NCBI GenBank assembly: GCA_017413105.1
Contig: JAFPVA010000240.1
Coordinates: forward strand, 1-39,233
Source: Butyrivibrio sp.
Lineage (GTDB): Bacteria > Bacillota > Clostridia > Lachnospirales > Lachnospiraceae
DNA length: 39,233 bases
Direction: 5' to 3'
Made by a program: the position numbers and the translations under genes. Every line of letters starts with the position of its first letter. Positions within the stretch are counted from its first letter, which is position 1. Below are positions 17,986-37,991 of this stretch, piece by piece. A model generated the notes under the pieces. That model did not search any database and was not told the origin of the DNA. It saw only the letters and a list, made by a program, of their open reading frames with translations.

Positions 17986-18062
17986 AAATTTACTTTTAAG
18001 ATAGAAAAGTTAAATTTAGTTTATCCGGAAACGAAAGGATCATGCTGCGGCATTTTTTATGA
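17986..18062 (+). promoter_or_regulatory. structured leader with a six-codon overlapping ORF
   Basis: Three possible hairpins in the leader: AAATTTACTTTT with AAAAGTTAAATTT (17986-18017); ATCC with GGAT (18023-18040), which would hide the AAAGGAT ribosome site; and ATGC/GCAT followed by T6 (18042-18058). An ATG at 18042 opens a six-codon frame (MLRHFL) whose TGA overlaps the main ATG as ATGA. The only Shine-Dalgarno-like sequence is about 20 bases from the main ATG but close to the small ORF, so translational coupling is plausible. Confidence 0.4.
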
Positions 18063-20161
18063 AAAAGTTAGCTAAATTAAGAATATGTTCTGATTCACAT
18101 AATATGCCCAAAATTGGATATTTTATCCTGATTGGGCTATATCTTATCGCCTCGAGGACCACATCTCATTTTGCCAGTTCTTCTGAGGTGGTGGTCCTTG
18201 GACAGATGCATCTTCCACTCAACTCTTTTGTAGGGGTAATTGCTTCTTTAGCAAGTGTTATCATAATATTCATGGTAGTGTTCTATGGACGCATTGGTTT
18301 CTATACCGGCACCATCATTATCGTTATCCGAGGGTTTATTCTTTTAGATCATATTATTTTTTCTCACAATATTCAGAGCATACCCGGAATTTTTACAAAT
18401 CTCATGACTTTTCTGGCGATTGCACTGATTCAGCGCAGAAATAACAGGATTGATAAATTCAAGGAAAGCGAGATCACACACCTCAAGGAACAGCAGAAGT
18501 TTTCTCAAAGACTCTTTGAGCAGACCGCAACAGCTCTTGTTAGTGCAATCGATGCTAAGGACGAATATTCAAGAGGTCATTCCCAGAGAGTTGCGGATTA
18601 TTCAGAGAAGATAGCCAGATATCTTGGTAAGAGTGAAGAGGATTGCAGAAAAATCTACTATGCAGCTCTTTTACACGATGTAGGTAAAATCGGTATTTCA
18701 GATAATATTATCAATAAACATGGTGAGCCCACTGAAGAAGAGTATGAGGTGATAATGCAGCATCCGATCATCGGAGAGCAGATTCTTTCAAGTATTACCG
18801 AGTATCCTTATCTTAGTATCGGTGCCAGATATCACCATGAGCGCTACGATGGAAAAGGCTATCCTGAGGGGCTTAAGGGCGAGGATATTCCTGAAATTGC
18901 GAGGATTATTGCTGTAGCAGATACCTACGATGCCATGACCTCCAGCAGAAGCTACAGATCGGCACTCCCTCAGCTGGTTGCAAGGGAAGAAATAGTTAAG
19001 GGCGCAGGAACGCAGTTTGATCCATATATCGTCCGAATTATGCAGCATGTCATAGACCTGGATCTTGAATATATTGAGAGAGAGAAGGCTGCGATAAAAG
19101 AGCTTTCCGGTAAGAGCGAGCTGGTATGTAAGGAATTCAGAGATGAAATCTCAAGTGGTATAAGAGTTACATATTATAGAATGAATCTTCAGTTTAAGTG
19201 CCGCATGGATGATGCTGAAGGAACTGGCAGAGGACCTGCAATTCTTCTTTTTGACTCTTTTGACGGAAGATATCATAATGATGAGACAACCATGAGAGAT
19301 CTGTGCTACTACGAGTTCTGTGAAATTTGGCTTGACGGTACTACCAAGGGGGCAGGTGTCAGGAAGATTGAGACCAGCATAACTGCTCATGATACGGGAG
19401 CTATTCAGGATGCAAATCAGTCCGGAGCAGATGTGGTTTACTATAATATCGAGGCTGTTAAACGTAAGGATCACGCTCAGATAACAATTGATGATGGCAG
19501 CAAGATCATAAAACATATTATTGCTCTTCCTGATTCTTCAAGATTTGTTTATCTTGCAATTACAGGAGAAAACTGCACCATCAGTGATGTTAAGATAGAA
19601 TCTACACAGGATATGATTCCGGAGGATTACATTCCAAGAATTGCAGAGAAGATCAGTTATATTGATGTTCCTGAAGGAGATGTTCCAAATGTTCAGATTG
19701 ACTCCTACAGAACAGCTGCTACAAGAGGCATACCGATCGTGGATGGAATGGAACTGAACTTCCATACAATGAGCCTCCCGACAGCGACACTTATCTGGCA
19801 TTGTGCATATATAGTAATTTTCTATTCCAAGGACGGTGAGATAAACGGAGAAGATTACAGAGAATATGCACTTATCAGACTGGACGGAGAGTACTGGGAT
19901 ACGGATAAAGGGGCAGATAATAAGCTGGTAGTCAATACCAATGATAAATTTGAAGGATGGGATAAGTGGAAGGCAGCCAACAAGAAGGGCCTTGACTGCC
20001 GAGTATTCTTCAAGAGAAAAGACAACGAGTTTGTTGTTACGACAGAGAATCAGGGACTTTTCATAAAGAATACCACTATTATTAATGAAATGCCTGAAAA
20101 GGTGTATGTGGCACTTTCCGGTGACGAATGTGCGCTGACTAATATCAAGGTAATAGCTTAA
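18059..20161 (+). CDS. membrane HD-GYP phosphodiesterase with tandem beta-rich C-terminal region
   Basis: Seen: 700 residues. About four membrane segments (residues ~18-125), a short linker, then a full HD-GYP domain (~150-340): His174 in RGHSQRV, His206-Asp207 in LHDVGKIG, MQHP, His259-His260 in YHHERYDGKGYPEG and ADTYDAM. Known: HD-GYP enzymes hydrolyse c-di-GMP. The remaining ~340 residues contain two related beta-rich halves, each ending alike (VYLAITGENCTISDVKI and VYVALSGDECALTNIKV), which I cannot assign to a family. A paralogue with the same C-terminal plan is at 32721. The ribosome site is poor and distant. It is transcribed alone from 17935-17963. Confidence 0.93.
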   Translation: MKKLAKLRICSDSHNMPKIGYFILIGLYLIASRTTSHFASSSEVVVLGQMHLPLNSFVGVIASLASVIIIFMVVFYGRIGFYTGTIIIVIRGFILLDHIIFSHNIQSIPGIFTNLMTFLAIALIQRRNNRIDKFKESEITHLKEQQKFSQRLFEQTATALVSAIDAKDEYSRGHSQRVADYSEKIARYLGKSEEDCRKIYYAALLHDVGKIGISDNIINKHGEPTEEEYEVIMQHPIIGEQILSSITEYPYLSIGARYHHERYDGKGYPEGLKGEDIPEIARIIAVADTYDAMTSSRSYRSALPQLVAREEIVKGAGTQFDPYIVRIMQHVIDLDLEYIEREKAAIKELSGKSELVCKEFRDEISSGIRVTYYRMNLQFKCRMDDAEGTGRGPAILLFDSFDGRYHNDETTMRDLCYYEFCEIWLDGTTKGAGVRKIETSITAHDTGAIQDANQSGADVVYYNIEAVKRKDHAQITIDDGSKIIKHIIALPDSSRFVYLAITGENCTISDVKIESTQDMIPEDYIPRIAEKISYIDVPEGDVPNVQIDSYRTAATRGIPIVDGMELNFHTMSLPTATLIWHCAYIVIFYSKDGEINGEDYREYALIRLDGEYWDTDKGADNKLVVNTNDKFEGWDKWKAANKKGLDCRVFFKRKDNEFVVTTENQGLFIKNTTIINEMPEKVYVALSGDECALTNIKVIA

Positions 20162-20165
20162 TAAA

Positions 20166-20197
20166 GTTGAAACGAGGTGACGTTGAAACGAGGTGAC
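20166..20197. repeat. two tandem 16-bp units related to the palindromic repeat
   Basis: GTTGAAACGAGGTGAC occurs twice back to back between the converging HD-GYP and prs genes. The unit resembles the outer arm of the 60-bp palindrome (GTGGAACGAGGGGACGG). No terminator hairpin is seen in this 43-base gap. Confidence 0.85.
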
Positions 20198-20204
20198 GGT
20201 AGTT

Positions 20205-21305
20205 TCATTTCCCTTTAGAATATACTTTAATGGTTTCTCTAATACGTTCAGCCGGTTTAATGAGCTTCTGCATGGAAGAATTTCGATTCAAGGTATCAAT
20301 TATGGCAGCAATATATTGATTCATGCTCACTCCCATATAATATTCTTTTTCCAAGAGTTCAGGCTTCTGATAGACAAGATTAGTGGTAAAAATGCGATCG
20401 AACAGGCCATCTTCATAGGCTTTGTCGAGTTTTTCAAAACCGTTGGAAAAGAGACCGAAGGTGGAGAAAATAAAAACTCTTTTTGCTCCCCGATCTTTTA
20501 TCTGCTTGCATACATCTATAATGCTGCTTCCGGATGCAATCATATCATCTACAACAATGGCATCCATTCCTTCAAGATTTCCACCACAAAAATCATGGGC
20601 AATAATAGGGTTTGTTCCGTCAACTATGTTGGAGTAATCTCTTCTTTTATAAAACATTCCAATGTTTACACCAAAGACAGAGGCAAAGAATACTACGCGT
20701 TCTGTAGCGCCTTCATCCGGAGCTATAAACATCAGATGTTCGGGATCTATTTTAATATCTTCGTATTCTGTAAGTAGAACCTGGGTAAACTGCAGCGCCG
20801 GAGATATGTTTTCTATTCCGCTTAAAGGAAGAACGTTTTGCATCCTCGGGTCATGGGCATCGAAGGTTACGATGTTGTCTACGCCAAGGAACTCCAGCTC
20901 TTTTAACATAATGGCACAGTCAAGGGATTCCCTGCCGGTCTTACGGTGCTGTCTGCTTTCATAAAGGAATGGCATGATGACAGTGATTCTTTTTGCCTTG
21001 CCTCCACACGCAGCTATAACGCGCTTCAGATCCTGATAGTGATCGTCAGGAGACATTCTGTTGAGCTCACCATCCATTTTAAACTTCAGGGAATTGTTGC
21101 ACACATCAACTAAGATATAGATATCTTTGTCCCGGACAGATTCCTTGATAACGGCCTTTGCTTCGCCACTGCTAAATCTTGGGCAATGAGCCTCAATAAG
21201 GAAATTATCCTGATGCCTCCAGTTGCAAAGAATTTTATTTATTTTGTCCGCTTTATCCTGATAGGATTCAAGGGATATAATTCCAAGATTGTTTTCATTG
21301 TTCAT
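20205..21305 (-). CDS. prs: ribose-phosphate pyrophosphokinase, divergent form
   Basis: Seen: 366 residues with PRPP synthetase landmarks: an N-terminal half with VIMPFLYESRQHRKTGRE (flexible-loop and Arg-rich region), FDAHDPRMQN (metal-binding HD/H motif) and the PRPP loop VVDDMIASGSS at ~251-261. Known: makes PRPP from ribose-5-phosphate and ATP, the precursor used by PurF-, PyrE- and HisG-type enzymes. It is longer than the usual ~315 residues and has divergent termini, so it may be a second Prs-like enzyme; a phosphoribosyltransferase-like regulatory homologue cannot be excluded. The ribosome site GAGGTG precedes the ATG. It ends tail-to-tail with the HD-GYP gene. Confidence 0.88.
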   Translation of the reverse strand: MNNENNLGIISLESYQDKADKINKILCNWRHQDNFLIEAHCPRFSSGEAKAVIKESVRDKDIYILVDVCNNSLKFKMDGELNRMSPDDHYQDLKRVIAACGGKAKRITVIMPFLYESRQHRKTGRESLDCAIMLKELEFLGVDNIVTFDAHDPRMQNVLPLSGIENISPALQFTQVLLTEYEDIKIDPEHLMFIAPDEGATERVVFFASVFGVNIGMFYKRRDYSNIVDGTNPIIAHDFCGGNLEGMDAIVVDDMIASGSSIIDVCKQIKDRGAKRVFIFSTFGLFSNGFEKLDKAYEDGLFDRIFTTNLVYQKPELLEKEYYMGVSMNQYIAAIIDTLNRNSSMQKLIKPAERIRETIKVYSKGK

Positions 21306-21383
21306 TACATCACCTCAGCTGATATGAAAAACTAGGAAACTCCGAAATTGCCAGGGATTTTCCTTTTGCAGATATTTTTATTA

Positions 21384-21412
21384 ATTGTATCAATTCATTT
21401 TTTTATCGTCAA
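21384..21412 (-). promoter_or_regulatory. promoter of prs
   Basis: Minus-strand TTGACG and TACAAT with a 17-base spacer, about 80 bases before the ATG. A small inverted repeat TCGT/ACGA (about 21406-21424) overlaps the -35 and could be an operator. The rest of the gap 21306-21749 holds the receptor gene's promoter, riboswitch and terminator. Confidence 0.7.
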
Positions 21413-21524
21413 AAATTTTACGACAATTTCATTTTTGAGGTTGTACAAAATTGCTAAGTAGTTATTGCTTTTTTGATAGAGGATATTGCATAGTGCAGAA
21501 TATAAAAAAATTATAAAAAAATAG

Positions 21525-21553
21525 TTGAAACAGGATAACATCTTCCGTATAAT
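21525..21553 (+). promoter_or_regulatory. promoter of the riboswitch-receptor transcript
   Basis: TTGAAA and a perfect TATAAT, 17 bases apart. The start would be near 21560, a few bases before the aptamer. Confidence 0.85.
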
Positions 21554-21566
21554 TCACTTCGGTTTA

Positions 21567-21640
21567 AATATTTAGCAAAGCAGACGAAAGTCTGTGACGC
21601 AAAGCTATAGGGACTTTAACATGTCAGCCAGTTGCATCTT
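21567..21640 (+). ncRNA. c-di-GMP-I (GEMM) riboswitch aptamer
   Basis: The run has the class hallmarks in order: GCAAAGCAGACGAAAGTCTG (P2 hairpin with its GAAA tetraloop), then TGACGCAAAGCTATAGGG, then CATGTCAGCCAGTTGC, whose TTGC can pair with the opening GCAA as P1. Known: this class binds c-di-GMP and often precedes motility and chemotaxis genes. It lies between a strong promoter and an intrinsic terminator upstream of a chemoreceptor gene, as expected. Recognised by eye, not by covariance model. Confidence 0.92.
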
Positions 21641-21659
21641 ATTTGATTAAGATTTTCAG

Positions 21660-21688
21660 AGCATGGGACATGTATCCCATGCTTTTTT
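21660..21688 (+). terminator. riboswitch expression-platform terminator
   Basis: Perfect nine-base arms AGCATGGGA and TCCCATGCT, six-base loop, then T5 after the stem. It comes 20 bases after the aptamer and 62 bases before the receptor start codon. A weaker hairpin ATCTTA/TAAGAT lies between aptamer and terminator (about 21636-21653). The antiterminator pairing, and so whether c-di-GMP turns the gene on or off, is not resolved by eye. Confidence 0.92.
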
Positions 21689-21749
21689 ACTTAATAATAT
21701 TGTTTCTTGTAAATTGGGTTTTTTAGAGATCATTCAGAAAGGGTTTTTT

Positions 21750-23483
21750 ATGAAAAAGAAAAGTAGAAACATGGTACGTAGTATTATCCTCCTTGCTTCA
21801 GCACTTGCTCTGGCTATGGCAGCTTGTGTTGGATACATTGGATACTCCCATATAAAGAAAGCGTATTTTGCTTCTTTCCAGGAGGGATTACACGCAGCAG
21901 CTATTCTTTTGGAGGATGAGCTTTCAAATCAGTATTCCGGTGAATGGTCATTATCTGAAGACGGCCAGCTTATGAAGGGAGATGTGGCTGTTCATGATAT
22001 TTATCAGCAACAGCTTGATTCACTCAATGAAAAGACTGGAATGCATTACACTCTTTTCTTTGGCGATACCCGCTATGTGACATCACTTGTTGACGCTACA
22101 ACAGGAAAGCGTATGGAAGGCACACAGGCTTCTGAGGCTGTAGTAAGTGAAGTGCTCAGAAGAGGAAACGAGTACCTTGCAACTAACTTTGAAATTGGTG
22201 GTCAGGAATGGTATGCGTATTACCTTCCTTTGAAGAACTCAGATGGAACTGTAGTAGGAATGGTATTTGCAGGTCGTGACACTTCAATTGTTTCCGGTAA
22301 TCTTTCAGCTGCAGGTAAGGCACTTGTTTTTACTTTCATCCTGTTTTTCTTATTTAACTGGGCTGTTGCACGTGTTATCATTTCAAGATCAACAAAGTCA
22401 ATCCGCGATATTATCGGAGGTCTTCAGAGTCTTGAAGAAGGAGAGCTTTCCTTCTATATTCATGATCGTACCTTCAACCGTAAGGATGAGCTTGGTGTAA
22501 TTGCCTCAAGTTCAGCTCAGGTACGTGACAAACTTCAGGATGTTATCAGTGCAACAAAGAAGCTTTCTGAGGATGTAACACAGTCAGGTGTAAGCCTTGC
22601 CAGCAGCGCAGAGTCTGCTTCCCGTGTAGCAGAGCAGGTTACCAATGCAGTAGAGGACATCAGCCGTGGTGCTACTTCCCAGGCTGAAAGCGTAGAAAAT
22701 TCAGTAAATAACACCAATGAGATGGGTGAAAGCATAGACGATATCACAGATAGAATTGAGGATCTTTCAGCTGCAGCTAATGAAATGCTTACAGGTGCAA
22801 ACCGTACAGTTGAGACTCTTAGCAGCCTCATGAACAAGAATGAGGATGTTATGAACTCCATGAAGGACATCAATGATCAGATCCGTCTTACAAATGATTC
22901 AGTAAAAGACATTGCTGAGGCATCAAGCGTTATTACAGCAATCGCAGAACAGACACATCTTCTTTCTCTTAATGCTACTATCGAGGCTGCAAGAGCTGGA
23001 GAATACGGAAAAGGATTTTCAGTTGTTGCTGCGGAGATTGGAACTCTTTCTTCTCAGTCAAAAGAGGCAGCTGTTTCAATTAAGAAGATAGTTGAGACTC
23101 TTGTAAGTGAATCTCAGAAGAGCGTTGAGACTATCGAGGAACTCAGTGAAAGCATGCAGCAGCAGAACAAGGATCTTACTTCAACAAAGGATGATATGGA
23201 TGCCGTTGTTGTAAATGTAAATAATGTTGACAGTTCAACAAAGCTTATAGCTGAGAAAATACACCTCCTTAACGGACTTAAGGCAAGTTTTGCAGATATC
23301 ATTTCAGAGCTCTCTGCTATCTCTCAGCAGAATGCAGCATCAACTCAGGAGACAAATGCTTCTATGGAAGAGCTTAATGCTACATTCTCGCTTATCAGCA
23401 ATGCAGCAAATGATCTTCGCGACATGGCTGAGACTCTTAATGAGAAGATGTCATTCTTCACAATGGAAGAAATGTCAGCTTAA
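21750..23483 (+). CDS. methyl-accepting chemotaxis protein
   Basis: Seen: 577 residues; membrane segment ~10-30, a ~150-residue extracellular single-Cache-like sensor ([39 protein letters not shown]), a second membrane segment ~187-207, HAMP, then a long coiled-coil signalling domain with the conserved tip [20 protein letters not shown] from residue ~399. Known: controls CheA kinase in chemotaxis arrays. Start: ATG at 21750 with AAAGGG upstream; a frame open from 21663 would begin within the terminator and is not used. Expression is predicted to respond to c-di-GMP through the upstream riboswitch. No C-terminal CheR-binding pentapeptide is present. Confidence 0.96.
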
Positions 23484-23495
23484 GTCAACGGGATA

Positions 23496-23640
23496 GTGGA
23501 ATGAGGTGAAACGAGGTGGAACGGGGGGGACGGTGGAACGGGGGGACGGTTCTTACGTTCCATGGAACGCAAGAACCGTCCCCTCGTTCCACGCAAGAAC
23601 CGTCCCCTCGTTCCACCGTCCCCTCGTTTCCCTCGAAACT
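23496..23640. repeat. palindromic-repeat cluster
   Basis: One complete 60-bp palindrome (23533-23592, centre CCATGG, only one arm mismatch near the centre) with partial arms on both sides: TGAAACGAGGTGG and GGAACGGGGGGGACGG upstream; CGCAAGAACCGTCCCC and CGTCCCCTCGTTTCC downstream. It is the richest cluster in the window, lying between the converging receptor and aldo/keto reductase genes. Confidence 0.9.
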
Positions 23641-23666
23641 AACCAGGTCGAAATCACTGGGAACAG

Positions 23667-24653
23667 TTAGATAAGTTTGTCGATTGCTTTTAGTTCTTCA
23701 TCAGTAAACACAGTATTATTGGCTGCTTTTATGTTATCAAGAATCTGCGCTGTCTTCGACGCACCGATGATCACAGAAGTGATGGCGTCATCCTTTAAGC
23801 ACCAGGCAAGTGCCATCTCGGCAAGTGTCTGGCCACGATCGGAGGCAATCTCATTCATTTTCTTGAGATTAGCTATCTTGTCTTCAGAAATCTGATCTTT
23901 TTTTAAGAATCGTCCATCTGTTTTTACCCTGCTATCTGCGGGAATTCCGTTAAAATATCTGTCTGTAAGCATGCCCTGTGCAAGAGGAGAAAAGCAGATG
24001 ATACCCTTGCCAAGTTTCTTAGAGGTTTCTTTCAGACCATTTTTTTCAATCGTTCGATCCAGAATGTTATAGCGGTTCTGGTTGATGATGAAAGGAACGC
24101 GAAGGTCTTCAAGTATTGCAGTCGCCTGTTCAAGGCGGTTTCCGTCATAATTTGATAGTCCAACATAAAGAGCTTTGCCTGCTCTTACGATATCTGCAAG
24201 AGCCAGCATAGTCTCTTCCAAAGGCGTATCGGGGTCAGGACGATGATGGTAGAAGATATCAACGTAGTCAAGACCCATTCTTTTTAATGACTGATCTAGG
24301 CTGGCGATGAGATATTTGCGGCTTCCGTGATCGCCGTAAGGCCCTGGCCACATGTCATAGCCGGCCTTTGTCGATATAATCAGCTCATCCCTGTAGGGAA
24401 GAAGATACTCTTTAAGGATTTTGCCGAAATTTCTTTCCGCAGCTCCAGCTTCGGGACCGTAATTGTTGGCAAGATCAAAGTGGGTGATGCCATTGTCGAA
24501 GGCTGTGGTGCATAGGCTGACCATATTGTAGTAATTACTTGTGTCGCCGAAATTGTGCCAAAGGCCAAGGGATACTGTCGGCAGTAATAAGCCTGATCTA
24601 CCGCATCGGTTATATTTCATCATTTCATATCTGTTTTCTTTTGCTGTGTACAT
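23667..24653 (-). CDS. aldo/keto reductase, YghZ-like
   Basis: Seen: 328 residues with the family tetrad Asp60 and Tyr65 (HFDLANNYGPEAGAAERNFG), Lys96 (ISTKAGYDMWPGPYGDHGSR) and His137 (FYHHRPDPDTPLEET), and C-terminal NADPH-site residues IIGASKTAQILDN. Known: NADPH-dependent reduction of aldehydes; the FDLANNYGP and GPYGDHGSRK segments match the YghZ group that reduces L-glyceraldehyde-3-phosphate and methylglyoxal. The start has GGAG seven bases ahead. It follows the PH-like gene on the same strand after 80 bases with only a small hairpin between, so co-transcription is possible. Confidence 0.94.
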   Translation of the reverse strand: MYTAKENRYEMMKYNRCGRSGLLLPTVSLGLWHNFGDTSNYYNMVSLCTTAFDNGITHFDLANNYGPEAGAAERNFGKILKEYLLPYRDELIISTKAGYDMWPGPYGDHGSRKYLIASLDQSLKRMGLDYVDIFYHHRPDPDTPLEETMLALADIVRAGKALYVGLSNYDGNRLEQATAILEDLRVPFIINQNRYNILDRTIEKNGLKETSKKLGKGIICFSPLAQGMLTDRYFNGIPADSRVKTDGRFLKKDQISEDKIANLKKMNEIASDRGQTLAEMALAWCLKDDAITSVIIGASKTAQILDNIKAANNTVFTDEELKAIDKLI

Positions 24654-24733
24654 GGCGTATCTCCTTCTGATTTCAGATCAGTTTTTTATTCAGTGGCGGG
24701 GGCGGATAATTAGAGCACACTAGTCTTTCTTCG

Positions 24734-25201
24734 TTAGTCCAGATGACCGCTGATGTCATCAAGTTCGTCTACGTCGTGGATGTCGCTGGCCCCGAAGCCG
24801 ATGTTCTGCATGCTTACGGTTCTGCGGCGAAGTCTTGCAGACTCGGAAGCTTCAAGGAGGAAGTCCTTGATCTCGCGTCCGTGTTTGATGTTCTTCATTA
24901 CGATAGTTCTGTCGGTTACATCCGAGGTGTACATAGTGATGGTGGACAATCCGAATATGCGCTGTCCCAGGGAGCTTGTGATTTCCACGTCGCTGATCTT
25001 ATACATGTAACAGTCATTTTCATGGACGGTAAAAAATCCATTCAGAATTGTTATAACATTTTCTCTGAGCTCGTATCTAGTAAAAGTCCAGGGAAGTCCG
25101 AAGAAGAGGAGCCTCTTTTTTTCGTCGTAGCACATTTTTCCCTTAGCTTCCATCGATTGATTGAACTGTTCCTGATTTACAATTTTTGTCATGGCTGTCA
25201 T
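24734..25201 (-). CDS. small PH-like (YdbS/bPH2-type) cytoplasmic protein
   Basis: Seen: 155 residues; a beta-rich central part (KRLLFFGLPWTFTRYELREN, VHENDCYMYKISDVEITSSL, QRIFGLSTITMYTSD) followed by MKNIKHGREIKDFLLEASE and an acidic tail. The order, especially the strand pair around FGLSTI and the final helix, matches bacterial PH-like domains; unlike YdbS it has no membrane helices. Function unknown. Start is uncertain: the ATG at 25201 has AAGGA very close; a second in-frame ATG three codons on sits further from it. Confidence 0.82.
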   Translation of the reverse strand: MTAMTKIVNQEQFNQSMEAKGKMCYDEKKRLLFFGLPWTFTRYELRENVITILNGFFTVHENDCYMYKISDVEITSSLGQRIFGLSTITMYTSDVTDRTIVMKNIKHGREIKDFLLEASESARLRRRTVSMQNIGFGASDIHDVDELDDISGHLD

Positions 25202-25286
25202 GGTTCCTTTCGTTTATTCTTCTTTATATTACCACCTTTTCGGGTAGCATCCCATCCCTCAAATCATTGGCGACGGCAAATCTAGG

Positions 25287-25341
25287 GTGGAACGAGAGAA
25301 CCGTCCCCCCGTTCCATGGAACGCAAGAACCGTCCCCTCGT
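25287..25341. repeat. palindromic-repeat family, direct-repeat form
   Basis: Two copies of an AGAACCGTCCCC...CGTT unit in the same orientation, meeting at CCATGGAACG. The left arm (GTGGAACGAGAGAACCG) has the sense normally found only on the right, so this copy cannot fold as the others do. Confidence 0.8.
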
Positions 25342-25436
25342 TTTATTTTATACAATTTTAACAATATAATTAATCGGTATATGGTAAAATTTTGTTAAGA
25401 ATTATCATGGCAAAAAAGGCGGCTGAATAATTATTT

Positions 25437-27575
25437 ATGAAGACAAATAGATTGTTGACCAAGATAAGAAGCAGTTTCTGGATACGTATACTGCTTTGTA
25501 TATTCGGAATAATAGTCAACGTCCTTATGGCATTTTTGATGAACAGATTTGGCCTTCATCTGTTCCTGGACACTATTGGTACAATAGCTGTCTCTGCCAT
25601 GGGAGGCTTATTCCCTGGTATTTTTACGGCGGTGGCTACGAACGCTATCTGTGCGCTTTTTAGCTATAATTATATTTACTACGGCTTTGTTAATGCCATA
25701 GTGGCAATCTTAACTGCGTGGTTTGTCAGAAAACATGCATATAAGAATTTCGGAAAAGTATTGTTGTTCATATTGGCACTGGCCCTTATTTCCGGTGGCT
25801 TAAGTGCTATTATCAATTGGAATCTTTTGGATGGGGCAAAGGCGGCTAAAGCCTCCGAGATGACCACGATCATTGCTTCTTCCATTAAGATATCTTTATT
25901 CTGGGCATATTTCCTCTACAACATTCTGATCAATTTTTTGGATAAATCTATAGCGATATTCATTTCCTGGATACTGATGATAATTATGCCTGACAGTATA
26001 TTAAAGAATATCGAAGAGGGGAGCTGGAAGCAGCGTCCGATTGAACAGAAGGAAATAGACGACCTCAATTCCTGGGGAAAAGGAATGCGTCATAGCATGC
26101 GACGCAGGACTACCCTGGTCATTGTGGTGACTTCAATTCTTTTGGTAATAGTCACAGGCTGGAGCGGCATACGTTTATATTTTGCCAAAACCAAGGAAAG
26201 CATGACTATAGATGCTTTAAATGCATTAAAGCTTGTAGTTACATTAGTGGATGCGGAGGATGTCAGAGAAGTTCTGAGGGACGGAAATTCTGCAGAGTCG
26301 TATCAGGAGGTAAAGCAGGTCCTGCAGCAGGTTATCAACAGCTATAGCTCGGTTGAGCATATGAGCGTGGTTGAGTTTAACCAGAAGCAGGGACGCATTA
26401 TTTATGATATAACCACCGCTGAAGCCGCTCCAAGGGAAAAGAGAACTATCCTTGAGTATGATGAACTGATAACCCCTGTGCTTACAAGACTTTTTGCTGG
26501 TGAGATCATAAGTCCTATCGAACATGGTGATATAAATGGCTGGGTACGCTCGGTGTACTATCCCATAAATGATGCTGAGGGAAACTGCCTCTGTTATGCG
26601 ATTGCTGATGTTTCGATTACATTTATGGCGGATTACATGCAGGATTTCATCATAAGGTCTCTTCTTATCCTCTTTGGCTTTTTTATTCTGGTTATTGCAA
26701 ATAATATGTGGTATACCAACGTTTTCATGGTTTATCCGATACGAAGCATGGCAAAATGCGTTGATGATTTCTCGAGCCTTGGCTATGAGCAGGAGCAGCT
26801 GGACAAAAATGTCAAGAACATCCGTGCTCTCGATATCAGGACCGAGGATGAAGTTGAGAGATTATATCAGTCAATCTGCAAAATGACCCTTAACCTGTCG
26901 GAACAGATGAGGGATCTAAGGCGTCTTTCAGAAGCAACCGCCAGGATGCAGGACGGTCTTATTATCACAATGGCGGACATGGTCGAGAAAAGAGATTCCG
27001 ACACCGGTGAGCATATTCAGAAGACAGCTCTTTATGTAAAGATTATCGTAGAGGGCCTTAAGAAAAAAGGCTATTATGCAGAAAAGATCACACCTAAATT
27101 CATATCAGATGTGGTGAGATCTGCGCCTCTTCATGATATAGGAAAGATAAACATTTCTGATGGTATTTTAAATAAACCCGGAAAGCTGACTCCGGAAGAG
27201 TTTGAGATAATGAAGACTCATACCACAGCGGGTAAAAAGATAATGGAAGATGCCATCAGTACGGTTTCCGGAGAAAACTACTTAAAGGAAGCAAGAAATA
27301 TGGCTGCATATCACCATGAGCGCTGGGATGGAAAGGGGTATCCCGAGGGGCTTCATGGCGAGGTTATCCCATTATCTGCCCGTATTATGGCAGTGGCGGA
27401 TGCTTTTGATGCTCTTACATCACCAAGGATATATAAGCCTGCTTTTCCTCTTGATAAGGCACTTGCCATCATTACGGAGGAAGCGGGAAATCAGTTTGAT
27501 CCAAAATGTGTCGAGGTATTTTTGGAAGCCCTGCCTGAGGTCAGGGTAGTACTTAAGAAGTATAACGATATGTGA
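25437..27575 (+). CDS. membrane HD-GYP phosphodiesterase with large sensor
   Basis: Seen: 712 residues. Residues ~15-190 form several membrane segments, including FLDTIGTIAVSAMGGLFPGI, reminiscent of ECF-transporter S-component-like sensor regions; a membrane segment ~230-248, an extracellular region to ~405, another membrane segment, a linker, and a complete HD-GYP domain: His526 in DTGEH, His566-Asp567 in LHDIGKIN, KTHTTAG, His626-His627-Glu628 in YHHERWDGKGYPEG, ADAFDALTS. Known: hydrolyses c-di-GMP. All recognisable metal and GYP residues are present, so probably active. The ribosome site is weak. It precedes the hybrid kinase by 106 bases on the same strand. Confidence 0.94.
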   Translation: MKTNRLLTKIRSSFWIRILLCIFGIIVNVLMAFLMNRFGLHLFLDTIGTIAVSAMGGLFPGIFTAVATNAICALFSYNYIYYGFVNAIVAILTAWFVRKHAYKNFGKVLLFILALALISGGLSAIINWNLLDGAKAAKASEMTTIIASSIKISLFWAYFLYNILINFLDKSIAIFISWILMIIMPDSILKNIEEGSWKQRPIEQKEIDDLNSWGKGMRHSMRRRTTLVIVVTSILLVIVTGWSGIRLYFAKTKESMTIDALNALKLVVTLVDAEDVREVLRDGNSAESYQEVKQVLQQVINSYSSVEHMSVVEFNQKQGRIIYDITTAEAAPREKRTILEYDELITPVLTRLFAGEIISPIEHGDINGWVRSVYYPINDAEGNCLCYAIADVSITFMADYMQDFIIRSLLILFGFFILVIANNMWYTNVFMVYPIRSMAKCVDDFSSLGYEQEQLDKNVKNIRALDIRTEDEVERLYQSICKMTLNLSEQMRDLRRLSEATARMQDGLIITMADMVEKRDSDTGEHIQKTALYVKIIVEGLKKKGYYAEKITPKFISDVVRSAPLHDIGKINISDGILNKPGKLTPEEFEIMKTHTTAGKKIMEDAISTVSGENYLKEARNMAAYHHERWDGKGYPEGLHGEVIPLSARIMAVADAFDALTSPRIYKPAFPLDKALAIITEEAGNQFDPKCVEVFLEALPEVRVVLKKYNDM

Positions 27576-27655: not shown

Positions 27656-27681
27656 GCAAACCACAGAGAAAGGAGAGAAGC

Positions 27682-30600
27682 ATGCATAAGAACATAAGCA
27701 TAATAAAAAACATTGCAGCTTCTCTTTGTGCTGCCCTGGCACTGACCCTTCTTTTGGGAAACTCTGCCTATGCAACAGTAGGTTCGGAGAAGTCTGTTGA
27801 CGCCGAGGGTGCAGAGCGCATCGGCGGAGGTTATGCCCTCACCGGCCAGTCTGCTTCTGTGGGTTATAGGGCAGAGGTCTATGATGAGACCAATGGCCTC
27901 ATTACTTCTGACGCCAATTACATACTGGGAGCTACAGATGGATATATATGGATTGGCAGTTACAGCGGAATTTTCAGATATGACGGAACGGTATTTGAGA
28001 AGATAGAATACTCTGAAGGGCTTACCAGCGGAAGAGGTCTTTTTGAAGATAGAAAGGGAAGAATCTGGGTTGGAACAAATGATAACGGTGTTGTTGTTAT
28101 TGATGGTGATGCTACAACCTGGTTAACCTACAAGGACGGGCTCCCGTCTTCTTCCATAAGGGTATTTGCCGAGGACGATCAGGGAAATGTCTTTATAGGA
28201 ACCACTTCCGGTGTATGCTATGCAGATGAAAATCTGAAAATTCACCTTATAGATGATGATAAGCTAAATAAGGAAAGAATACTCCGCCTTGATTCTGATG
28301 GTGCCGGAAATGTTTATGGTTCCACCAAGAACGGATATATTTTTATGATAAAAGACCGGAAGGTAACTCATGTCTATAGTTCGCTTGAACTTGGAACAGC
28401 CAGAATCACATCAATCCTGGCAGACCCGGACAGGGATGGATATGTCTATATTTCAACTGATGGAAACGGGATCTACCATGGGAGATTTGGTAGTAGCGGC
28501 GAAGTGATGGAGAAGATTTCTGTTTATCCTTTAAATGTGATTCACTGGATGAACTATGACTGCGGAAGGATATGGGTCTCCTCAACAAGTCAGGTGGGGT
28601 ATCTGGATGAAAGTAAAGAATTCCATTTGGTAGAAGACCTTCCGGTAGACAGCGGAATAGAGATGCTCACGTCTGATTATCAGGGAAATTTGTGGCTGGC
28701 ATCTTCCACGAAGGGAATCATGAAGGTTGTTTCCTGCAATTTTGAGAATCTTTCCAAGGAATATGGTCTTCCGGAGGATGCAATAAATTCAACATGCATG
28801 CACAAGGGCCTTCTTTATATTGGAACGGATAACGGAATCCGCATTCTTGATAATTCAAGAGTGATGGAAAACAGGCTTACCAGGTACCTAGCCGGTGTAA
28901 GGGTAAGATGTATCATGGAAGATAAAAATGGCAACCTGTGGATATCTACTTATACCGGAGGACATGGGCTTGTCTGCTATTCTGCAAATGGTGCTATAAA
29001 AACCTTCTCCACGGTTGATGGGCTTCCTAGTAACGAGGTCAGATGCACAAAACAGGCATCGGATGATTCTATTTTAGTGGGGACCAACGGTGGTCTTGCC
29101 GTTATATCGCACGGCGTAGTGACAAAGACCGTTGAAGCTGCTGACGGCATAAATAATACTGTTTTTCTAACTATTGAAGAAGCAGAAAACGGAGATATCT
29201 ATGTTGGAACCGACGGAGATGGAATGTATATCATCTCCGATAAGGAGGTAAAGAGGCTTGGAAGAGACGACAATCTTTCAAGTGACGTTATAGTGCGCAT
29301 AAAAAAGGATAACAAGGAAAACCTATACTGGATAATAGCCTCCAATTCAATTGGATATATGAAGGGTGGCGTAATCAAAACAGTTACCTCATTTCCTTTC
29401 AATAATATCAATGACCTGTTTTTTGATAAAAACGACAATATGTGGATCCTCTCTTCCTATGGCATATACATGGTAAGTAAGGAGCAGATGTTGAATAACA
29501 CAGTTACCGATTACAGGCTATTTAACCTGGCAAATGGTGTTCCCGGTATTCCGACTTCCAATTCCTTCAGCCATCTCGACGAAGCAGGAAATCTTTATAT
29601 TGCAGGAAGAAAGGGAGTTGGAAAGGTCAACATAAATAACTTCTTTGAAGAAAAGATGGATGTTAAAGTCGATCTTAAGTCTGTCTATGTGGGCGATAAT
29701 AAAATCCAGCCTGACAGCCTAGGAAGATATGTCCTTCCTGCCACGGATGCCCGTGTAAAGATAACGGCAACGGTCATCGATTATACGCTGATGGACCCAC
29801 TGGTGCATGTATACATGGAAGGAAATGAAGATGACGGCATATTAGTTTCAAAGAGCGCCCTTTCCACCCTTGAATATACAGGCATGAAGCATGGCACCTA
29901 TAATCTCCATGTTCAGGTTTTGGCAAGTTCAAACGCAAAAGCGATTCTTGATCAGACCTATACGATAGTAAAGCAGCCGAGATTTTTTGACCTTCTGATA
30001 GTAAGAGCTCTTGCTATAACTCTTATCGCGGTACTGGCAGGTCTTTTGGTATTCAGGATAATGAAGGGAACTGTCGTAAGGAGTCAGCTTGAGGAGATAA
30101 AGAAGGCCAGAGATGAGGCAGAACGTGCCAATTCTGCCAAGACAAGATTCCTTGCCAATATTTCTCATGAGATAAGAACACCGATAAATACTATCCTTGG
30201 TATGGACGAGATGATCATGAGGGAAGATGCCACAGGCGTTCCAAAGGGTTATTTCATGTCTATGATGAACTATGCCTTTGATATCAAAAATGCCACAGAC
30301 TCTCTTCTTGGTCTTATAAATGACCTTCTCGACATATCCAAGATAGAATCAGGAAAGATGCATCTTGTGGAGCAGGAGTATGATACTGCTGATCTCTTAA
30401 GGTCCATCGTGTCCATGATCAGAGTAAAGAGTACGGAAAAAGAACTAACTTTTGACGTGGTTGTAGATGAGATCATGCCTCAAAGGTTTTATGGTGATGC
30501 GGGAAAAATCAAACAGATAGTCCTTAACCTTCTTACCAATGCTGTCAAATATACGGATAAGGGAGGCTTTATTCTTAGTGTTTCCATAAAAGAACGCACG

Positions 30601-31929
30601 AATGATAAAGCAAAATTATCTTTTTCTGTAAAAGATACAGGAATCGGCGTAAAGCAGGAGGATATGGATAAGCTCTTTACTGCTTACGAAAGACTCGACG
30701 AGCAGAAAAACAGCGGAATTCAGGGCACGGGACTTGGACTTGATATATCAAGAAGATTTGCAGAACTCATGGGCGGGAGCCTCATCTGCGAAAGTGTATA
30801 CGGAGAGGGATCTGAATTTATTCTTTCCATAGAGCAAAAAATTGTAGATGATACGCCGATAGGTCTTTTTGTGGAGCATGATGATAAAACTGCAAAAGGT
30901 CCTTATGTGCCGCAGTTTATTGCACCTGATGCGGATGTGCTGGTGGTTGATGATAACCCTATGAACCTGAATGTTATAAAGGGTCTTCTGAAGGCTACCA
31001 AGATATTTGTAACAACTGCAGGCGGCGGCGAGGAATGTCTGGAAAAAATGAAGACAACAAGGTTCAATGTTGTGCTTCTTGACCATATGATGCCCGGAAT
31101 GGACGGCGTCGAGACGGTGGCCAAGATCAGGGAAACCGATAAGGAAATCCCGGTCTATGCCCTTACAGCCAATGCATCAGTGGGGGAAGAATTCTATAAG
31201 TCCAAGGGCTTTACCGGGTATCTTGCAAAGCCTATTGACAGTGAAGCTCTTGAGAAGACTATCATGAAACATCTTCCTGAGGAGATAATGTTCAAGCCGA
31301 CAAAGGAGGATGCAATAGTTGAGCTTGAAACAATTCCTGAGGAGCTCTCATGGATAGGCGAAACAGAGGGAATAACAGTTGATGAGGGAATAAAGAACTC
31401 CGGTGGAATATCGGCATTTATTTTCTCTTTAAAGCTTTTCCTTGAAACTATCGACGGAAATGCAAAGGTAATAAAGGATGCCTATGATGCAGGAGATATC
31501 AGGCTTTACACCATAAAAGTCCATGCACTGAAGAGTTCTGCAAGGATCATAGGAGCAGAGGCTCTGTCAAAGTTATGCGCAGAACTTGAGGATGCCGGCA
31601 ACAGGCAGGATACTGATTTTATCGATATGTACACTGAAGAGCTCTTGCAGGATTATCTTAAATACAAGGATAAACTGGCGAGACTTTCCGAAAGTACAGA
31701 AAAGGTGGATAATAAAGATAAGGAAGAAATCTCTGAGGATGAGCTTAAGGATGCCTATGGGGCTTTAAAGGATTTCATACCTCAGATGGATTATGATGCA
31801 GTTGAACTGATATTAAAGGATCTGAATGAATACAAACTTCCTAAGGAAGATGAGGAGCGGATCAGCAAGCTTTCCGGCATGCTTAAGGTCTTTGACTGGG
31901 AAGGAATGGAAGAACTAATAAATCAGTAG
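27682..31929 (+). CDS. hybrid sensor histidine kinase: propeller, kinase, receiver and Hpt
   Basis: Seen: 1415 residues. Signal peptide ~1-32; about a dozen propeller repeats (GYIWIGSYSGIFRYDG, GRIWVGTNDNGVVVIDG, GDIYVGTDGDGMYII); a Y_Y_Y-like beta domain (~675-755); membrane segment ~770-793; HisKA with His829 in FLANISHEIRTPIN; ATPase with Asn953, DTGIGV and GTGLGL; receiver with Asp1134 in LLDHMMPGMDG; Hpt with His1281 in KVHALKSSARIIGAE; ~85 extra helical residues. Known: such proteins bind a ligand outside and pass phosphate His-Asp-His to a separate regulator. There is no DNA-binding domain, unlike Bacteroides HTCS proteins. The likely partner is the next gene, 21 bases on. GGAG six bases before the ATG. 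Confidence 0.96.
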   Translation: MHKNISIIKNIAASLCAALALTLLLGNSAYATVGSEKSVDAEGAERIGGGYALTGQSASVGYRAEVYDETNGLITSDANYILGATDGYIWIGSYSGIFRYDGTVFEKIEYSEGLTSGRGLFEDRKGRIWVGTNDNGVVVIDGDATTWLTYKDGLPSSSIRVFAEDDQGNVFIGTTSGVCYADENLKIHLIDDDKLNKERILRLDSDGAGNVYGSTKNGYIFMIKDRKVTHVYSSLELGTARITSILADPDRDGYVYISTDGNGIYHGRFGSSGEVMEKISVYPLNVIHWMNYDCGRIWVSSTSQVGYLDESKEFHLVEDLPVDSGIEMLTSDYQGNLWLASSTKGIMKVVSCNFENLSKEYGLPEDAINSTCMHKGLLYIGTDNGIRILDNSRVMENRLTRYLAGVRVRCIMEDKNGNLWISTYTGGHGLVCYSANGAIKTFSTVDGLPSNEVRCTKQASDDSILVGTNGGLAVISHGVVTKTVEAADGINNTVFLTIEEAENGDIYVGTDGDGMYIISDKEVKRLGRDDNLSSDVIVRIKKDNKENLYWIIASNSIGYMKGGVIKTVTSFPFNNINDLFFDKNDNMWILSSYGIYMVSKEQMLNNTVTDYRLFNLANGVPGIPTSNSFSHLDEAGNLYIAGRKGVGKVNINNFFEEKMDVKVDLKSVYVGDNKIQPDSLGRYVLPATDARVKITATVIDYTLMDPLVHVYMEGNEDDGILVSKSALSTLEYTGMKHGTYNLHVQVLASSNAKAILDQTYTIVKQPRFFDLLIVRALAITLIAVLAGLLVFRIMKGTVVRSQLEEIKKARDEAERANSAKTRFLANISHEIRTPINTILGMDEMIMREDATGVPKGYFMSMMNYAFDIKNATDSLLGLINDLLDISKIESGKMHLVEQEYDTADLLRSIVSMIRVKSTEKELTFDVVVDEIMPQRFYGDAGKIKQIVLNLLTNAVKYTDKGGFILSVSIKERTNDKAKLSFSVKDTGIGVKQEDMDKLFTAYERLDEQKNSGIQGTGLGLDISRRFAELMGGSLICESVYGEGSEFILSIEQKIVDDTPIGLFVEHDDKTAKGPYVPQFIAPDADVLVVDDNPMNLNVIKGLLKATKIFVTTAGGGEECLEKMKTTRFNVVLLDHMMPGMDGVETVAKIRETDKEIPVYALTANASVGEEFYKSKGFTGYLAKPIDSEALEKTIMKHLPEEIMFKPTKEDAIVELETIPEELSWIGETEGITVDEGIKNSGGISAFIFSLKLFLETIDGNAKVIKDAYDAGDIRLYTIKVHALKSSARIIGAEALSKLCAELEDAGNRQDTDFIDMYTEELLQDYLKYKDKLARLSESTEKVDNKDKEEISEDELKDAYGALKDFIPQMDYDAVELILKDLNEYKLPKEDEERISKLSGMLKVFDWEGMEELINQ

Positions 31930-31950
31930 TCAGAAACGAGGAGAAAATGT

Positions 31951-32709
31951 ATGTCTGACGATCGCATGATTGTAATTGGAGAGAAGGCATCCTTTATCGT
32001 CCGGGTACTTATCAGTAAGGCTCAGGATGCCGGCATAAAATGCGAATATGTGCCCTGCGTTATAGATGAAATTGACAAGAAACTGGAGGGGGCAGCTCTT
32101 GTTACGCTTTATATGGATGAAGATTCCCTGCCTCATGAGGATATAATCCACTTCCTTAAGGACAAAATGGATGAGAAGAACATGCAGATGATCCTTATAG
32201 GAGAGCAGCGCGATATTCAGCGTATCGGGAATCATATACCTAAAGAGATGATATACACCATTTTTACCCGCCCTGTCGATAACGCGGAATATATCAGCAC
32301 GGTCAAGGATTATATTAAAAAAGTCAGCATGGGAGAGTTCAGGAAGAGCATTCTCGTAGTTGATGATGATCCTAACTATCTGGCTATCGTAAGGGAATGG
32401 CTTAAGGAGGATTATAAGGTATTCATGGCTAATTCCGGCCTTCAGGCCATTAAGTGGCTTGGGAAAAACAGTGTAGATCTTATCCTTCTTGATCATGAGA
32501 TGCCTGTAACAAGCGGTCCTCAGGTTCTTGAAATGTTAAGAAGTGATGAGGAAACCAAGGGAATTCCTGTCATGTTCCTTACGGGAAAAAGTGACAAGGA
32601 AAGCGTAATGGCTGTGGTAGCCTTAAAACCTGAAGGATATTTTCTTAAGACCATACACAAGGAAGAACTTTTGGAGAAACTGAAGGAATTCTTTATACTG
32701 CATAAATAA
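31951..32709 (+). CDS. two-receiver response regulator, N-terminal receiver degenerate
   Basis: Seen: 252 residues. C-terminal receiver (~131-250) has Asp138-Asp139, phospho-acceptor Asp181 in LILLDHEMPVTSG, Thr211 and Lys233. The N-terminal ~120 residues look like a receiver fold without the catalytic set: no acidic pair (MIVIGEKAS), VTLYMDEDS where the phospho-Asp loop would be, and IFTRPVD where TKPVD is normal. No DNA-binding or enzyme domain. Inferred: accepts phosphate from the upstream hybrid kinase and acts by protein contact, possibly on the HD-GYP protein encoded 11 bases downstream. GGAG seven bases before the ATG. Confidence 0.92.
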   Translation: MSDDRMIVIGEKASFIVRVLISKAQDAGIKCEYVPCVIDEIDKKLEGAALVTLYMDEDSLPHEDIIHFLKDKMDEKNMQMILIGEQRDIQRIGNHIPKEMIYTIFTRPVDNAEYISTVKDYIKKVSMGEFRKSILVVDDDPNYLAIVREWLKEDYKVFMANSGLQAIKWLGKNSVDLILLDHEMPVTSGPQVLEMLRSDEETKGIPVMFLTGKSDKESVMAVVALKPEGYFLKTIHKEELLEKLKEFFILHK

Positions 32710-32720
32710 GTAGGTATTAC

Positions 32721-35081
32721 ATGTATGATTTTATAAGAGAAAATCAATTGAATATCATGCTGCTCTTATGCGGAGCCTGCGGGATTCTGACGTTTCTTCT
32801 CATTATTACAAGATTTCTTACAATGATCAGAAAATGGATCCTGATCCAGATGGAGCTTGTGGCCTTTTTTCTTCTTTGGTTTGACAGACTGGCATATATC
32901 TATTCCGGAGATGTCTCATCCAAGGGCTACGTTATGGTGCGCCTTAGCAACTTTATGGTGTTCTTCCTGACCCCGGCTATAGTTCTGGGATTCAATATGT
33001 TTATCTGGAACTACCTCTCTGAAGAGGGAGGCATGGATAAGCATCCGAGGCGCCTTTTAGTAACGGGGTATGCGTCCGGAGCAGCAATGCTTCTGGCAGT
33101 TATTTCTGCTCTTACAGAGTTATACTATTACTTTGATGAAAGGAATGTCTATCACAGGGGGCCGGGTTTTCTTATTGCATATATAATCCCGATAGTCTGC
33201 CCTCTGATCCAGTGGAGTGTTGTATTACAGTATAAAAAGAAATTCAGCAAACTTATTTTTATTTCCATGCTCCTTTATATATTTGTGCCCATATTCTGCG
33301 GAATACTGCAGATTTTTACCTATGGAATTTCAATAGTCAACATGGCGATGGTGGCTGTTTCCGTAAGCCTTTATATCTTTATGTATCTTGACCTGAACAA
33401 CACGGTTGAGCATGCTCATGAGATTGAGATTAAGACCATGCAGGGGCAGCAGAGGCGTATGCAGAGAGTCTTTGACCAGATAGCAAAGGCCTTTGTGGCA
33501 GCAGTAGAAAAGAAGGATGACTTTACAAAGGGAAATGCGGTAAAAGAAGCTGAATATGCCAGAAAGCTTGCAAAGCTTGCGGGAAAAGATGAGGAGTTCT
33601 GCGAGAAGGTTTATTACGCAGCGCTTCTCCATGATGTAGGAATGATCGGTATTCCGGACTCCGTTATAAAAAATGATACAGATCCGGGAAAATATGACTA
33701 TGAGACCATAAGGCAGAAGCCAGTTATCGGAAAAGAGATCCTTGCAAATATCACTGAATATCCATACCTTTCAGAAGTGGCTGCCTATAGCCATGAAAGA
33801 TACAACGGAACAGGTTATCCGGAGGGATTAAAGGGTGCGGAAATTCCGGAGATAGCCAGAATTGTGGCTGTTGCGGATGCCTATGTGACCATGACGACCC
33901 CAAAGAGATACCGGGATGCAAAGCCTGAATTTGTGGCACGAGAAGCCTTTATTAAGGGCCAGGGTGCTGAGTTTGATCCTGTGTATGCTGAACTAATGGT
34001 CAAGATTATTGACGATGAGGGCAGGGAAAAAATCCGCGATGATATTTCACTGGTTGAAAAAGAACTTTCCTTTGAGAAGTATCGCGAAACAGTTTCACTT
34101 GGTATACCGGTAACCGGAAAAATAACCAATATTACATTTAAATGTGATCTTTCAAAGAATAGTCCCAGTGGCTTCAGCGCTCCTTCCATAATTCTTTTTG
34201 ATTCCTATGACAGGCGTGTGCACGCTGAGGCAAAAGCCATCAAGGTATACCACTATATTGAATATGGAGAAGTATGGTTTGACAACCACAGCATTACAAC
34301 AGCTGCCAGGAAGATAGAAGAAACCATGCTTGAGACTGAAAAAGGTCTTTTGGGAAAAGGCGAGTACACAATTGTCTGTGCCAAGTATGAGGACCACTTA
34401 AAGCTTACAATGACCAGTCCTGAAAATAAGAAAGAGGTCATTGTTGCGCTTATGGATGGTTCAACTTCCGTATACTTAGGAATTACCGGAGAATACTGTA
34501 AAGTATCAGGTATCGAGATTGTTCAGACCGAGGAAGAGGCGGACGTTACCTATATTCCAAGAATCTCGGAAGAGATAAGTTACATCGACCATATGGAGTC
34601 TGACATACCAAATATCCAGATAAATCAGACACGTTCTTCCTCCACGGAGGGAATAGAGGTGGTCGGAAAGCTTAAGCTGGCCTTCCATTCAATGAGCCTT
34701 CCGATAGCAAACTTTGTATGGCACTGTCCTTATGTGGTTATTTTTTCTTCTGACAACGGACGTGTTCAGGGCAGAAACTACAGGGAATACGCACTTATAA
34801 AGATAAACGGCGAGTTGGAAAACAAATATGAATTTGCCGAGAATTCTTTTTCCATGAAAAGAAAGGACAGTTTCCCGGGATGGGAAGCATGGAAAGAAAA
34901 GAACAGAGAAGGGCTTGACTGCGAGATAAGCTTTGAGAGAAAGGGAAATCGCATAATTACTTCAACTGAAAATCTCGGAATTATCATAGATAATGTTACA
35001 ATTATTAGTGAGGTCCCTGATAAGGTATATGTGGCGCTGACAGGAGACAGATGTGCCCTGACCGATATCAGGATCAAATAA
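32721..35081 (+). CDS. membrane HD-GYP-like protein with degenerate active site and tandem beta-rich C-terminal region
   Basis: Seen: 786 residues. About seven membrane segments (~10-230), then a domain clearly paralogous to the protein at 18059, but with catalytic positions changed: the first His is Asn272 (KGNAVKE), HDVGK is HDVGM (His304-Asp305 kept, Met308), MQHP is RQKP, HHER is SHER (Ser357), the following Asp is Asn362, and ADTYDAM is ADAYVTM. GYPEGLKG is kept. The C-terminal ~340 residues repeat the unassigned two-part beta-rich plan (VYLGITGEYCKVSGIEI; VYVALTGDRCALTDIRI). Inferred: a non-catalytic c-di-GMP binder or signalling partner. Weak ribosome site; 11 bases after the receiver gene. 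Confidence 0.93.
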   Translation: MYDFIRENQLNIMLLLCGACGILTFLLIITRFLTMIRKWILIQMELVAFFLLWFDRLAYIYSGDVSSKGYVMVRLSNFMVFFLTPAIVLGFNMFIWNYLSEEGGMDKHPRRLLVTGYASGAAMLLAVISALTELYYYFDERNVYHRGPGFLIAYIIPIVCPLIQWSVVLQYKKKFSKLIFISMLLYIFVPIFCGILQIFTYGISIVNMAMVAVSVSLYIFMYLDLNNTVEHAHEIEIKTMQGQQRRMQRVFDQIAKAFVAAVEKKDDFTKGNAVKEAEYARKLAKLAGKDEEFCEKVYYAALLHDVGMIGIPDSVIKNDTDPGKYDYETIRQKPVIGKEILANITEYPYLSEVAAYSHERYNGTGYPEGLKGAEIPEIARIVAVADAYVTMTTPKRYRDAKPEFVAREAFIKGQGAEFDPVYAELMVKIIDDEGREKIRDDISLVEKELSFEKYRETVSLGIPVTGKITNITFKCDLSKNSPSGFSAPSIILFDSYDRRVHAEAKAIKVYHYIEYGEVWFDNHSITTAARKIEETMLETEKGLLGKGEYTIVCAKYEDHLKLTMTSPENKKEVIVALMDGSTSVYLGITGEYCKVSGIEIVQTEEEADVTYIPRISEEISYIDHMESDIPNIQINQTRSSSTEGIEVVGKLKLAFHSMSLPIANFVWHCPYVVIFSSDNGRVQGRNYREYALIKINGELENKYEFAENSFSMKRKDSFPGWEAWKEKNREGLDCEISFERKGNRIITSTENLGIIIDNVTIISEVPDKVYVALTGDRCALTDIRIK

Positions 35082-36171: not shown

Positions 36172-36214
36172 TCTTTCTGGGGAAACAGGATTACATGTCA
36201 GCAGGGGGAATGAT

Positions 36215-37900: not shown

Positions 37901-37991
37901 GAAACTTGTGGTGTATTTTGCCGGTTACGGTATACGTATAGGACAGGATAAACTCAGATTATAAACTGGAGCTATTGAAGGAGTATGCATT

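Follow-up and report, generated by a model that had tools for sequence, protein, structure and literature searches.

The 39,233-nucleotide stretch of Butyrivibrio sp. DNA analysed here (contig JAFPVA010000240.1; the whole stretch is referred to as the window) encodes two proteins in which a membrane part and an HD-GYP domain are followed by some 350 C-terminal residues, here called the tail. Both open reading frames (ORFs) had been singled out in an earlier note made from the sequence alone, and they exist as it described them (proteins 1 and 2, Table 1). Their tails share 43% identity (E 2.9e-90), and all motifs named in that note, namely EISYID/KISYID, MSLP followed by WHC, YREYALI and VYVAL.GD.CAL, were found in the two proteins. 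By this search they are the sole two matches in the window's genome; a distant third protein was matched later with a profile of surface relatives. Pfam HD_5 is assigned to residues 160–323 of protein 1 (E 4.7e-35) and 258–420 of protein 2 (E 9e-27). Hydrophobicity indicates a membrane N terminus in both proteins and no hydrophobic stretch after the HD-GYP domain (maximum 19-residue mean in the tail of 1.38 and 1.24, respectively). This fits the cytoplasmic location that the note had proposed, so that the tail is probably an intracellular module.

Table 1. Features of the two tail-bearing HD-GYP proteins and of the operon genes upstream of protein 2 (positions in the window).
Feature	Position	Strand	Details
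Protein 1: membrane part, intact HD-GYP, predicted tandem lectin-fold C terminus	18059..20161	+	700 aa; outside operon
Protein 1 HD-GYP domain, residues 160-323	18536..19027	+	7/7 checked metal-ligand positions intact
Protein 1 first predicted concanavalin-A-like beta-sandwich, ~residues 348-529	19100..19645	+	model pLDDT 92.7; fold matches
Protein 1 second predicted concanavalin-A-like beta-sandwich, ~residues 530-700	19646..20158	+	
Protein 2: multi-pass membrane part, degenerate HD-GYP, predicted tandem lectin-fold C terminus	32721..35081	+	786 aa
Protein 2 degenerate HD-GYP domain, GYP loop retained	33492..33980	+	ligand positions mapped by motif spacing
Protein 2 first predicted concanavalin-A-like sandwich, ~residues 446-617	34056..34571	+	homology to protein 1
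Protein 2 second predicted concanavalin-A-like sandwich, ~residues 618-786	34572..35078	+	homology to protein 1
Transmembrane HD-GYP partner, intact metal ligands, ECF-S-like N terminus	25437..27575	+	712 aa
Hybrid histidine kinase: Reg_prop propeller sensor, HisKA, HATPase, receiver, Hpt	27682..31929	+	1415 aa
Response regulator, C-terminal receiver, no recognised output domain	31951..32709	+	252 aa

The tail consists of two related halves. In protein 1, the half-against-half score was 95 compared with a shuffled mean of 30, and none of 500 shuffles reached it; the similarity was weaker in protein 2, with a score of 50 against the same mean and 2 of 500 shuffles reaching it. When profiles of the halves, built from an 80-row alignment, were compared with each other, the probability was 99.1% (E 1.6e-17) in global and 98.6% (E 9.2e-16) in local mode. 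A scan of the C-terminal 353 residues of protein 1 and 346 residues of protein 2 against Pfam and NCBIfam returned no family. Across 30 tail members, the best Pfam match had an E of 0.0044, and such matches occurred in one or two members each. The tail profile found no PDB sequence at E up to 10, and the tail had no match in PHROGs.

In the model of the protein 1 tail, with a predicted local distance difference test (pLDDT) score of 92.7, both halves are beta-rich and are predicted to form concanavalin-A-like two-sheet jelly-roll sandwiches. A fold search with this model gave galectins and levanase C-terminal domains as the nearest folds to the halves. The two beta-rich halves postulated in the earlier note are thus borne out by the shuffles, the profile comparison and the confident models. 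Its view of the region as an unassigned domain is upheld with one qualification: Pfam, NCBIfam, PHROGs and PDB sequences gave no described family for the tail, but the predicted shape of both halves is the known galectin/LamG type of sandwich. Neither a described Pfam domain nor a lack of two-fold similarity, the outcomes that would have spoken against the note, was found. As far as the searches reached, the tail is a new sequence family with a known, predicted fold. This sandwich is shared with galectins, levanase/GH32 C-terminal domains, CBM66 and LamG, and galectin-8 has a similar tandem arrangement. In contrast to these proteins, the tail has no detectable membership in their sequence families and is fused to a cytoplasmic signalling domain, and sugar binding by it is putative.

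More distant relatives of the tail domain are secreted or surface proteins. The weak matches within Lachnospiraceae are proteins with signal peptides, several with C-terminal anchors, and some distant relatives also carry lipoprotein-type cysteines (all judged by eye). None of eight scanned surface relatives had a Pfam match above cut-off, and single surface proteins gave nothing better than E 0.48, or no match, against PDB sequences. A profile of ten domains from these surface relatives gave one PDB match, at E 0.3. The same profile matched in 37 of 250 genomes of the family, HD-GYP tails being among the matches, and it recovered protein 1 through its C-terminal half (E 4.9e-25). Among nine surface proteins found by the profile and scanned, three had a Laminin_G_3 match above cut-off, and glycoside hydrolase domains were absent from all nine. 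The window's own genome encodes a lipoprotein-like protein with three copies of a surface relative of the tail domain (L215, contig C58, 1385–3949; L numbers denote loci); it has no Pfam match, and its N-terminal part was matched by an arabinanase structure (E 2.2e-5). Because of the signal peptides, anchors and LamG domains, the tail family seems to be a lectin-type module that these bacteria carry at the surface, one branch of which is cytoplasmic and joined to HD-GYP. The same surface features would also suit a tail that lies outside the cell through an unusual topology. We give this very little credence, since the tails contain no hydrophobic stretch and enzymes of cyclic di-GMP (c-di-GMP) turnover are generally known to work in the cytoplasm.

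The fusion to HD-GYP is the rule. At the loci examined, tail matches follow an HD-GYP domain within one ORF throughout, with four exceptions, all of them pieces: a remnant (L031), two 3′ pieces past a frame break (L063 and L129) and one cut at a contig end (L066). Among 61 relative genomes, tail matches were found in 30, including one remnant. The 30 all fall within the 37 genomes that represent the window's genus, and the tail was absent from all 24 genomes of other families of the same order. Broader surveys gave matches in 53 of 397 genomes of the family (some merely weaker surface relatives or fragments), 28 of 392 of the order and 3 of 398 of the phylum, and those of the last two surveys all belong to the same family. 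In these surveys, the full tandem fused to HD-GYP was found almost exclusively in Lachnospiraceae, as expected of the conserved lineage module that had been proposed. A contig pattern search matched at least 595 stretches, at least 514 of which encode relatives, and the best 80 were kept for analysis. Labels of Butyrivibrio, Lachnospiraceae or other Clostridia are attached to 77 of the 80; the other three are from metagenome-assembled genomes labelled Spirochaetaceae or Treponema (L125, L133 and L136), all confirmed as HD-GYP plus tail genes. In the tail tree, L125 and L136 group with rows labelled Lachnospiraceae or Clostridiales, so that either transfer between gut bacteria or misbinning may account for them. 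A genome of the window's genus and Butyrivibrio sp. INlla16 have identical tails (L003 and L078).

The two window proteins differ in their catalytic residues. Protein 1 has all seven checked metal-ligand positions and the GYP motif, like the canonical HD-GYP phosphodiesterases PmGH and RpfG, from which it differs by its lectin-fold tandem. Judging from these residues, it is most likely an active c-di-GMP phosphodiesterase. Protein 2 lacks several catalytic residues and hence a complete set of metal ligands: by motif spacing, N272, M308, K333, S357 and V389 occupy the positions of PmGH H189, K225, H250, H276 and D308. In PmGH, replacing H189, H250 or H276 by alanine is reported to have essentially abolished activity, with a similar impact at K225 and D308 (PMC4159591). 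Among 137 tail-bearing HD-GYP domains, the seven ligand positions are all present in 96; one or more of them is lost in 40, and a single domain is truncated. The GYP loop, I277, R282, M293 and P304 are conserved in the intact and altered groups alike. Protein 2 itself retains the HD pair, the second histidine of HHE, the VAD aspartate and the GYP loop, and with the conserved fold these features would be compatible with an enzyme that works with a diminished metal centre or on a different substrate. We regard such residual activity as quite improbable in view of the changes at the five PmGH positions, and the HPxxG histidine is replaced by lysine, a poor metal ligand, in 28 of the 137 proteins. 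A few altered proteins differ at one ligand only (e.g. L054 and L057), which makes inactivity less sure for those proteins. With its metal centre largely lost and its GYP loop kept, protein 2 is most likely a non-catalytic binding and regulatory subunit.

The altered form has a characteristic genomic setting. Protein 2 is encoded by the last gene of an operon in which a transmembrane HD-GYP partner, a propeller hybrid kinase with Hpt and a response regulator precede it. We analysed 60 neighbourhoods, comprising 20 of altered genes, 20 mainly of other long forms, and 15 further altered plus five short intact forms; of the 40 altered proteins, 38 are represented (the window's protein 2 and L009, with its truncated locus, are absent), along with two others. 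A homologue of an operon partner was counted when it was encoded in the same orientation as the tail gene and no more than 7.5 kb from it. Among the 61 tail genes in these neighbourhoods, the 40 altered ones had the HD-GYP partner beside them in 38 cases, the kinase in 37 and the regulator in 32. Where the HD-GYP partner is missing (two genes), the kinase is present and the contig reaches only some 4 kb upstream. For the 21 intact genes, the HD-GYP partner and a kinase match were each found in 11. Seven short protein-1-like forms are all intact; none has the HD-GYP partner (two have little upstream sequence) and one has a kinase match. Altered catalysis was thus confined, in all 40 cases of this sample, to neighbours of the HD-GYP partner or its kinase. 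In the flanks (up to 6 kb) of 80 named loci, mostly intact short forms, a kinase of the operon type at 50% identity or more was present in five. The receiver of the regulator keeps the acidic pair, the phospho-acceptor aspartate and the lysine in all 32 sequences, the window's included, and its threonine is replaced by serine in two.

This conserved setting bears on whether the altered genes are decaying pseudogenes or assembly errors. Broken copies or remnants do exist in relatives (L031, L063 and L129), and single copies may be broken; at L063 and L129 the tail frame is divided between two ORFs by a frame break or an assembly error. For the altered group as a whole, decay is scarcely credible. 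Nearly all 40 altered proteins have open frames of about 780–830 residues (L048 is shorter), and the operon is conserved. The ratio of nonsynonymous to synonymous substitution rates (dN/dS) in the HD part is 0.043, 0.049, 0.054 and 0.065 in four altered pairs, although three of these have dS above 1.5, near saturation; one further altered pair shows no amino-acid change, and the ratio was incomputable in five of 11 pairs. We therefore dropped the pseudogene explanation. In the tail tree, the altered state requires five changes, and 35 of the 40 altered rows sit in one group of 36.

A reciprocal pattern between tail protein and HD-GYP partner was also considered. Among 49 pairs, 36 combine an altered tail protein with an intact partner, five an intact tail protein with a partner carrying H221Y, six are intact in both and two altered in both (Fisher 0.004). 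The five tail-intact cases (L195–L198 and L206), in which the partner has YD in place of HD, form one clade, and only three independent pairs lie on supported branches. The reciprocal loss is therefore a hint rather than a finding, and its statistic, which fails on independent pairs, was discarded as proof.

Owing to its lost catalytic residues and its place in a conserved sensory gene cluster, protein 2 seems to be an enzyme turned regulator. In the RpfC/RpfG layout, a hybrid kinase with receiver and Hpt stands beside an HD-GYP protein. The operon kinase is alike in having HisKA, HATPase_c, Response_reg and Hpt, and the operon differs in having its receiver on a separate 252-aa protein rather than fused to HD-GYP, in its two HD-GYP proteins and in its propeller sensor. 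Bacteroides hybrid two-component systems combine a propeller sensor, kinase, receiver and AraC. They share the Reg_prop sensor on a hybrid kinase; the operon kinase has Hpt instead of the AraC output, and its neighbours are HD-GYP proteins. The altered HD-GYP domain itself has a partial counterpart in DvhD of Desulfovibrio vulgaris, which is reported to bind c-di-GMP metal-free and to change shape (PMC13090378). DvhD resembles protein 2 as a membrane protein with a degenerate HD-GYP domain that lacks metal ligands and keeps the GYP-loop tyrosine; it differs by SQ in place of HD and by its dCache and PAS domains, protein 2 having kept HD and carrying a lectin-fold tail within a kinase operon. 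Of the DvhD contacts, compared by spacing, only some are kept in protein 2: the GYP tyrosine, a methionine, a further tyrosine and basic residues are present, but lysine stands at the equivalent of R314 and asparagine at that of K235.

Our preferred explanation, held tentatively and at somewhat less than an even chance, is that the lectin-fold tail is a cytoplasmic regulatory module, protein 1 being a working c-di-GMP phosphodiesterase gated by its tail and protein 2 a pseudo-enzyme in a four-gene relay. In this relay, an extracellular signal, plausibly an oligosaccharide, would be read by the propeller hybrid kinase, and the phosphoryl signal would run via its receiver and Hpt, reach the stand-alone response regulator and then, by analogy with RpfC/RpfG, the HD-GYP proteins. 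The regulator would then control c-di-GMP breakdown by the intact HD-GYP partner encoded at 25437, acting alone or paired with protein 2. We think it unlikely, but worth stating, that Lachnospiraceae brought a surface lectin module into the cytoplasm, where it serves c-di-GMP breakdown as a sensor, and that live and dead HD-GYP proteins of the four-gene relay pair with each other. There, the dead subunit with its lectin tail would respond to an internal ligand and to c-di-GMP and would govern how active the live one is.

Conserved residues of the tail bear on whether it binds a ligand. The polar and aromatic residues W580, D399, D402, D471, H472 and E611 are invariant in 94 intact proteins and are kept in 37–40 of the 40 altered ones. 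Intact proteins retain the R-x-D..W signature that the tail has in common with the surface domains, and in the altered ones it is largely replaced. The two tail forms may therefore differ in what they bind, or the operon form may bind nothing. A tail that serves only for dimerisation or as a docking scaffold, for example for the response regulator or the partner HD-GYP protein, with no small ligand, would suit this loss, as the altered tail is nevertheless conserved. In addition, concanavalin-A-like sandwiches are generally able to mediate protein contacts, and the operon receiver, lacking an output domain, needs a target. However, the six residues named above, in a putative pocket, persist in intact and nearly all altered proteins, and around the seven short genes of the protein 1 type, no HD-GYP operon partner is encoded that could be docked. 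On balance, we consider a pure scaffold somewhat unlikely and retain the regulatory module as the preferred explanation.

If this holds, a cytoplasmic second-messenger enzyme with a lectin-fold tail would have an unusual input, and the conserved relay with an altered beside an intact HD-GYP protein offers a natural experiment on the role of pseudo-phosphodiesterases. The new elements are the tail family, a known fold in a new place and the putative pseudo-enzyme relay; the earlier note had seen neither the catalytic loss nor the operon. Among the papers listed by our literature searches, we found no description of a lectin-fold tail fused to HD-GYP, nor of HD-GYP systems of Lachnospiraceae. 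In passages of PMC9540692, HD-GYP appears solely in a domain list, and passages of PMC7824862 concern a phage context. The window's genome is rich in c-di-GMP proteins, with 56 GGDEF matches, 53 of them over the cut-off, at an estimated contamination of 7.28%.

Viral contigs contained no close relatives. Protein 1 is matched by 27 annotated phage records, and among the matches listed (5 of 27) the matching residues lie between 95 and 355, corresponding to the HD-GYP part. Directly 3′ of protein 2, ATP-binding cassette (ABC) uptake genes occupy 35113–39059 and weakly resemble the 2-aminoethylphosphonate type (below NCBIfam cut-offs). This transporter was rejected as a part of the module, as ATPase homologues near tail genes are few, at 25–37% identity, and the binding protein and permease were unmatched there; the relatives' operons were not accompanied by the uptake genes as a set. 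The N terminus of the partner encoded at 25437–27575 resembles, below cut-off, CD3073-family S components of energy-coupling factor (ECF) transporters, an unusual sensor to find on an HD-GYP protein. L200 (4199–11410) has a pair of HD-GYP genes with tails on one strand, some 2.4 kb from each other; one is intact and the other altered. Finally, a Reg_prop propeller precedes HD-GYP and tail within L098 and L107, and L150 resembles these two by length and sequence alone.
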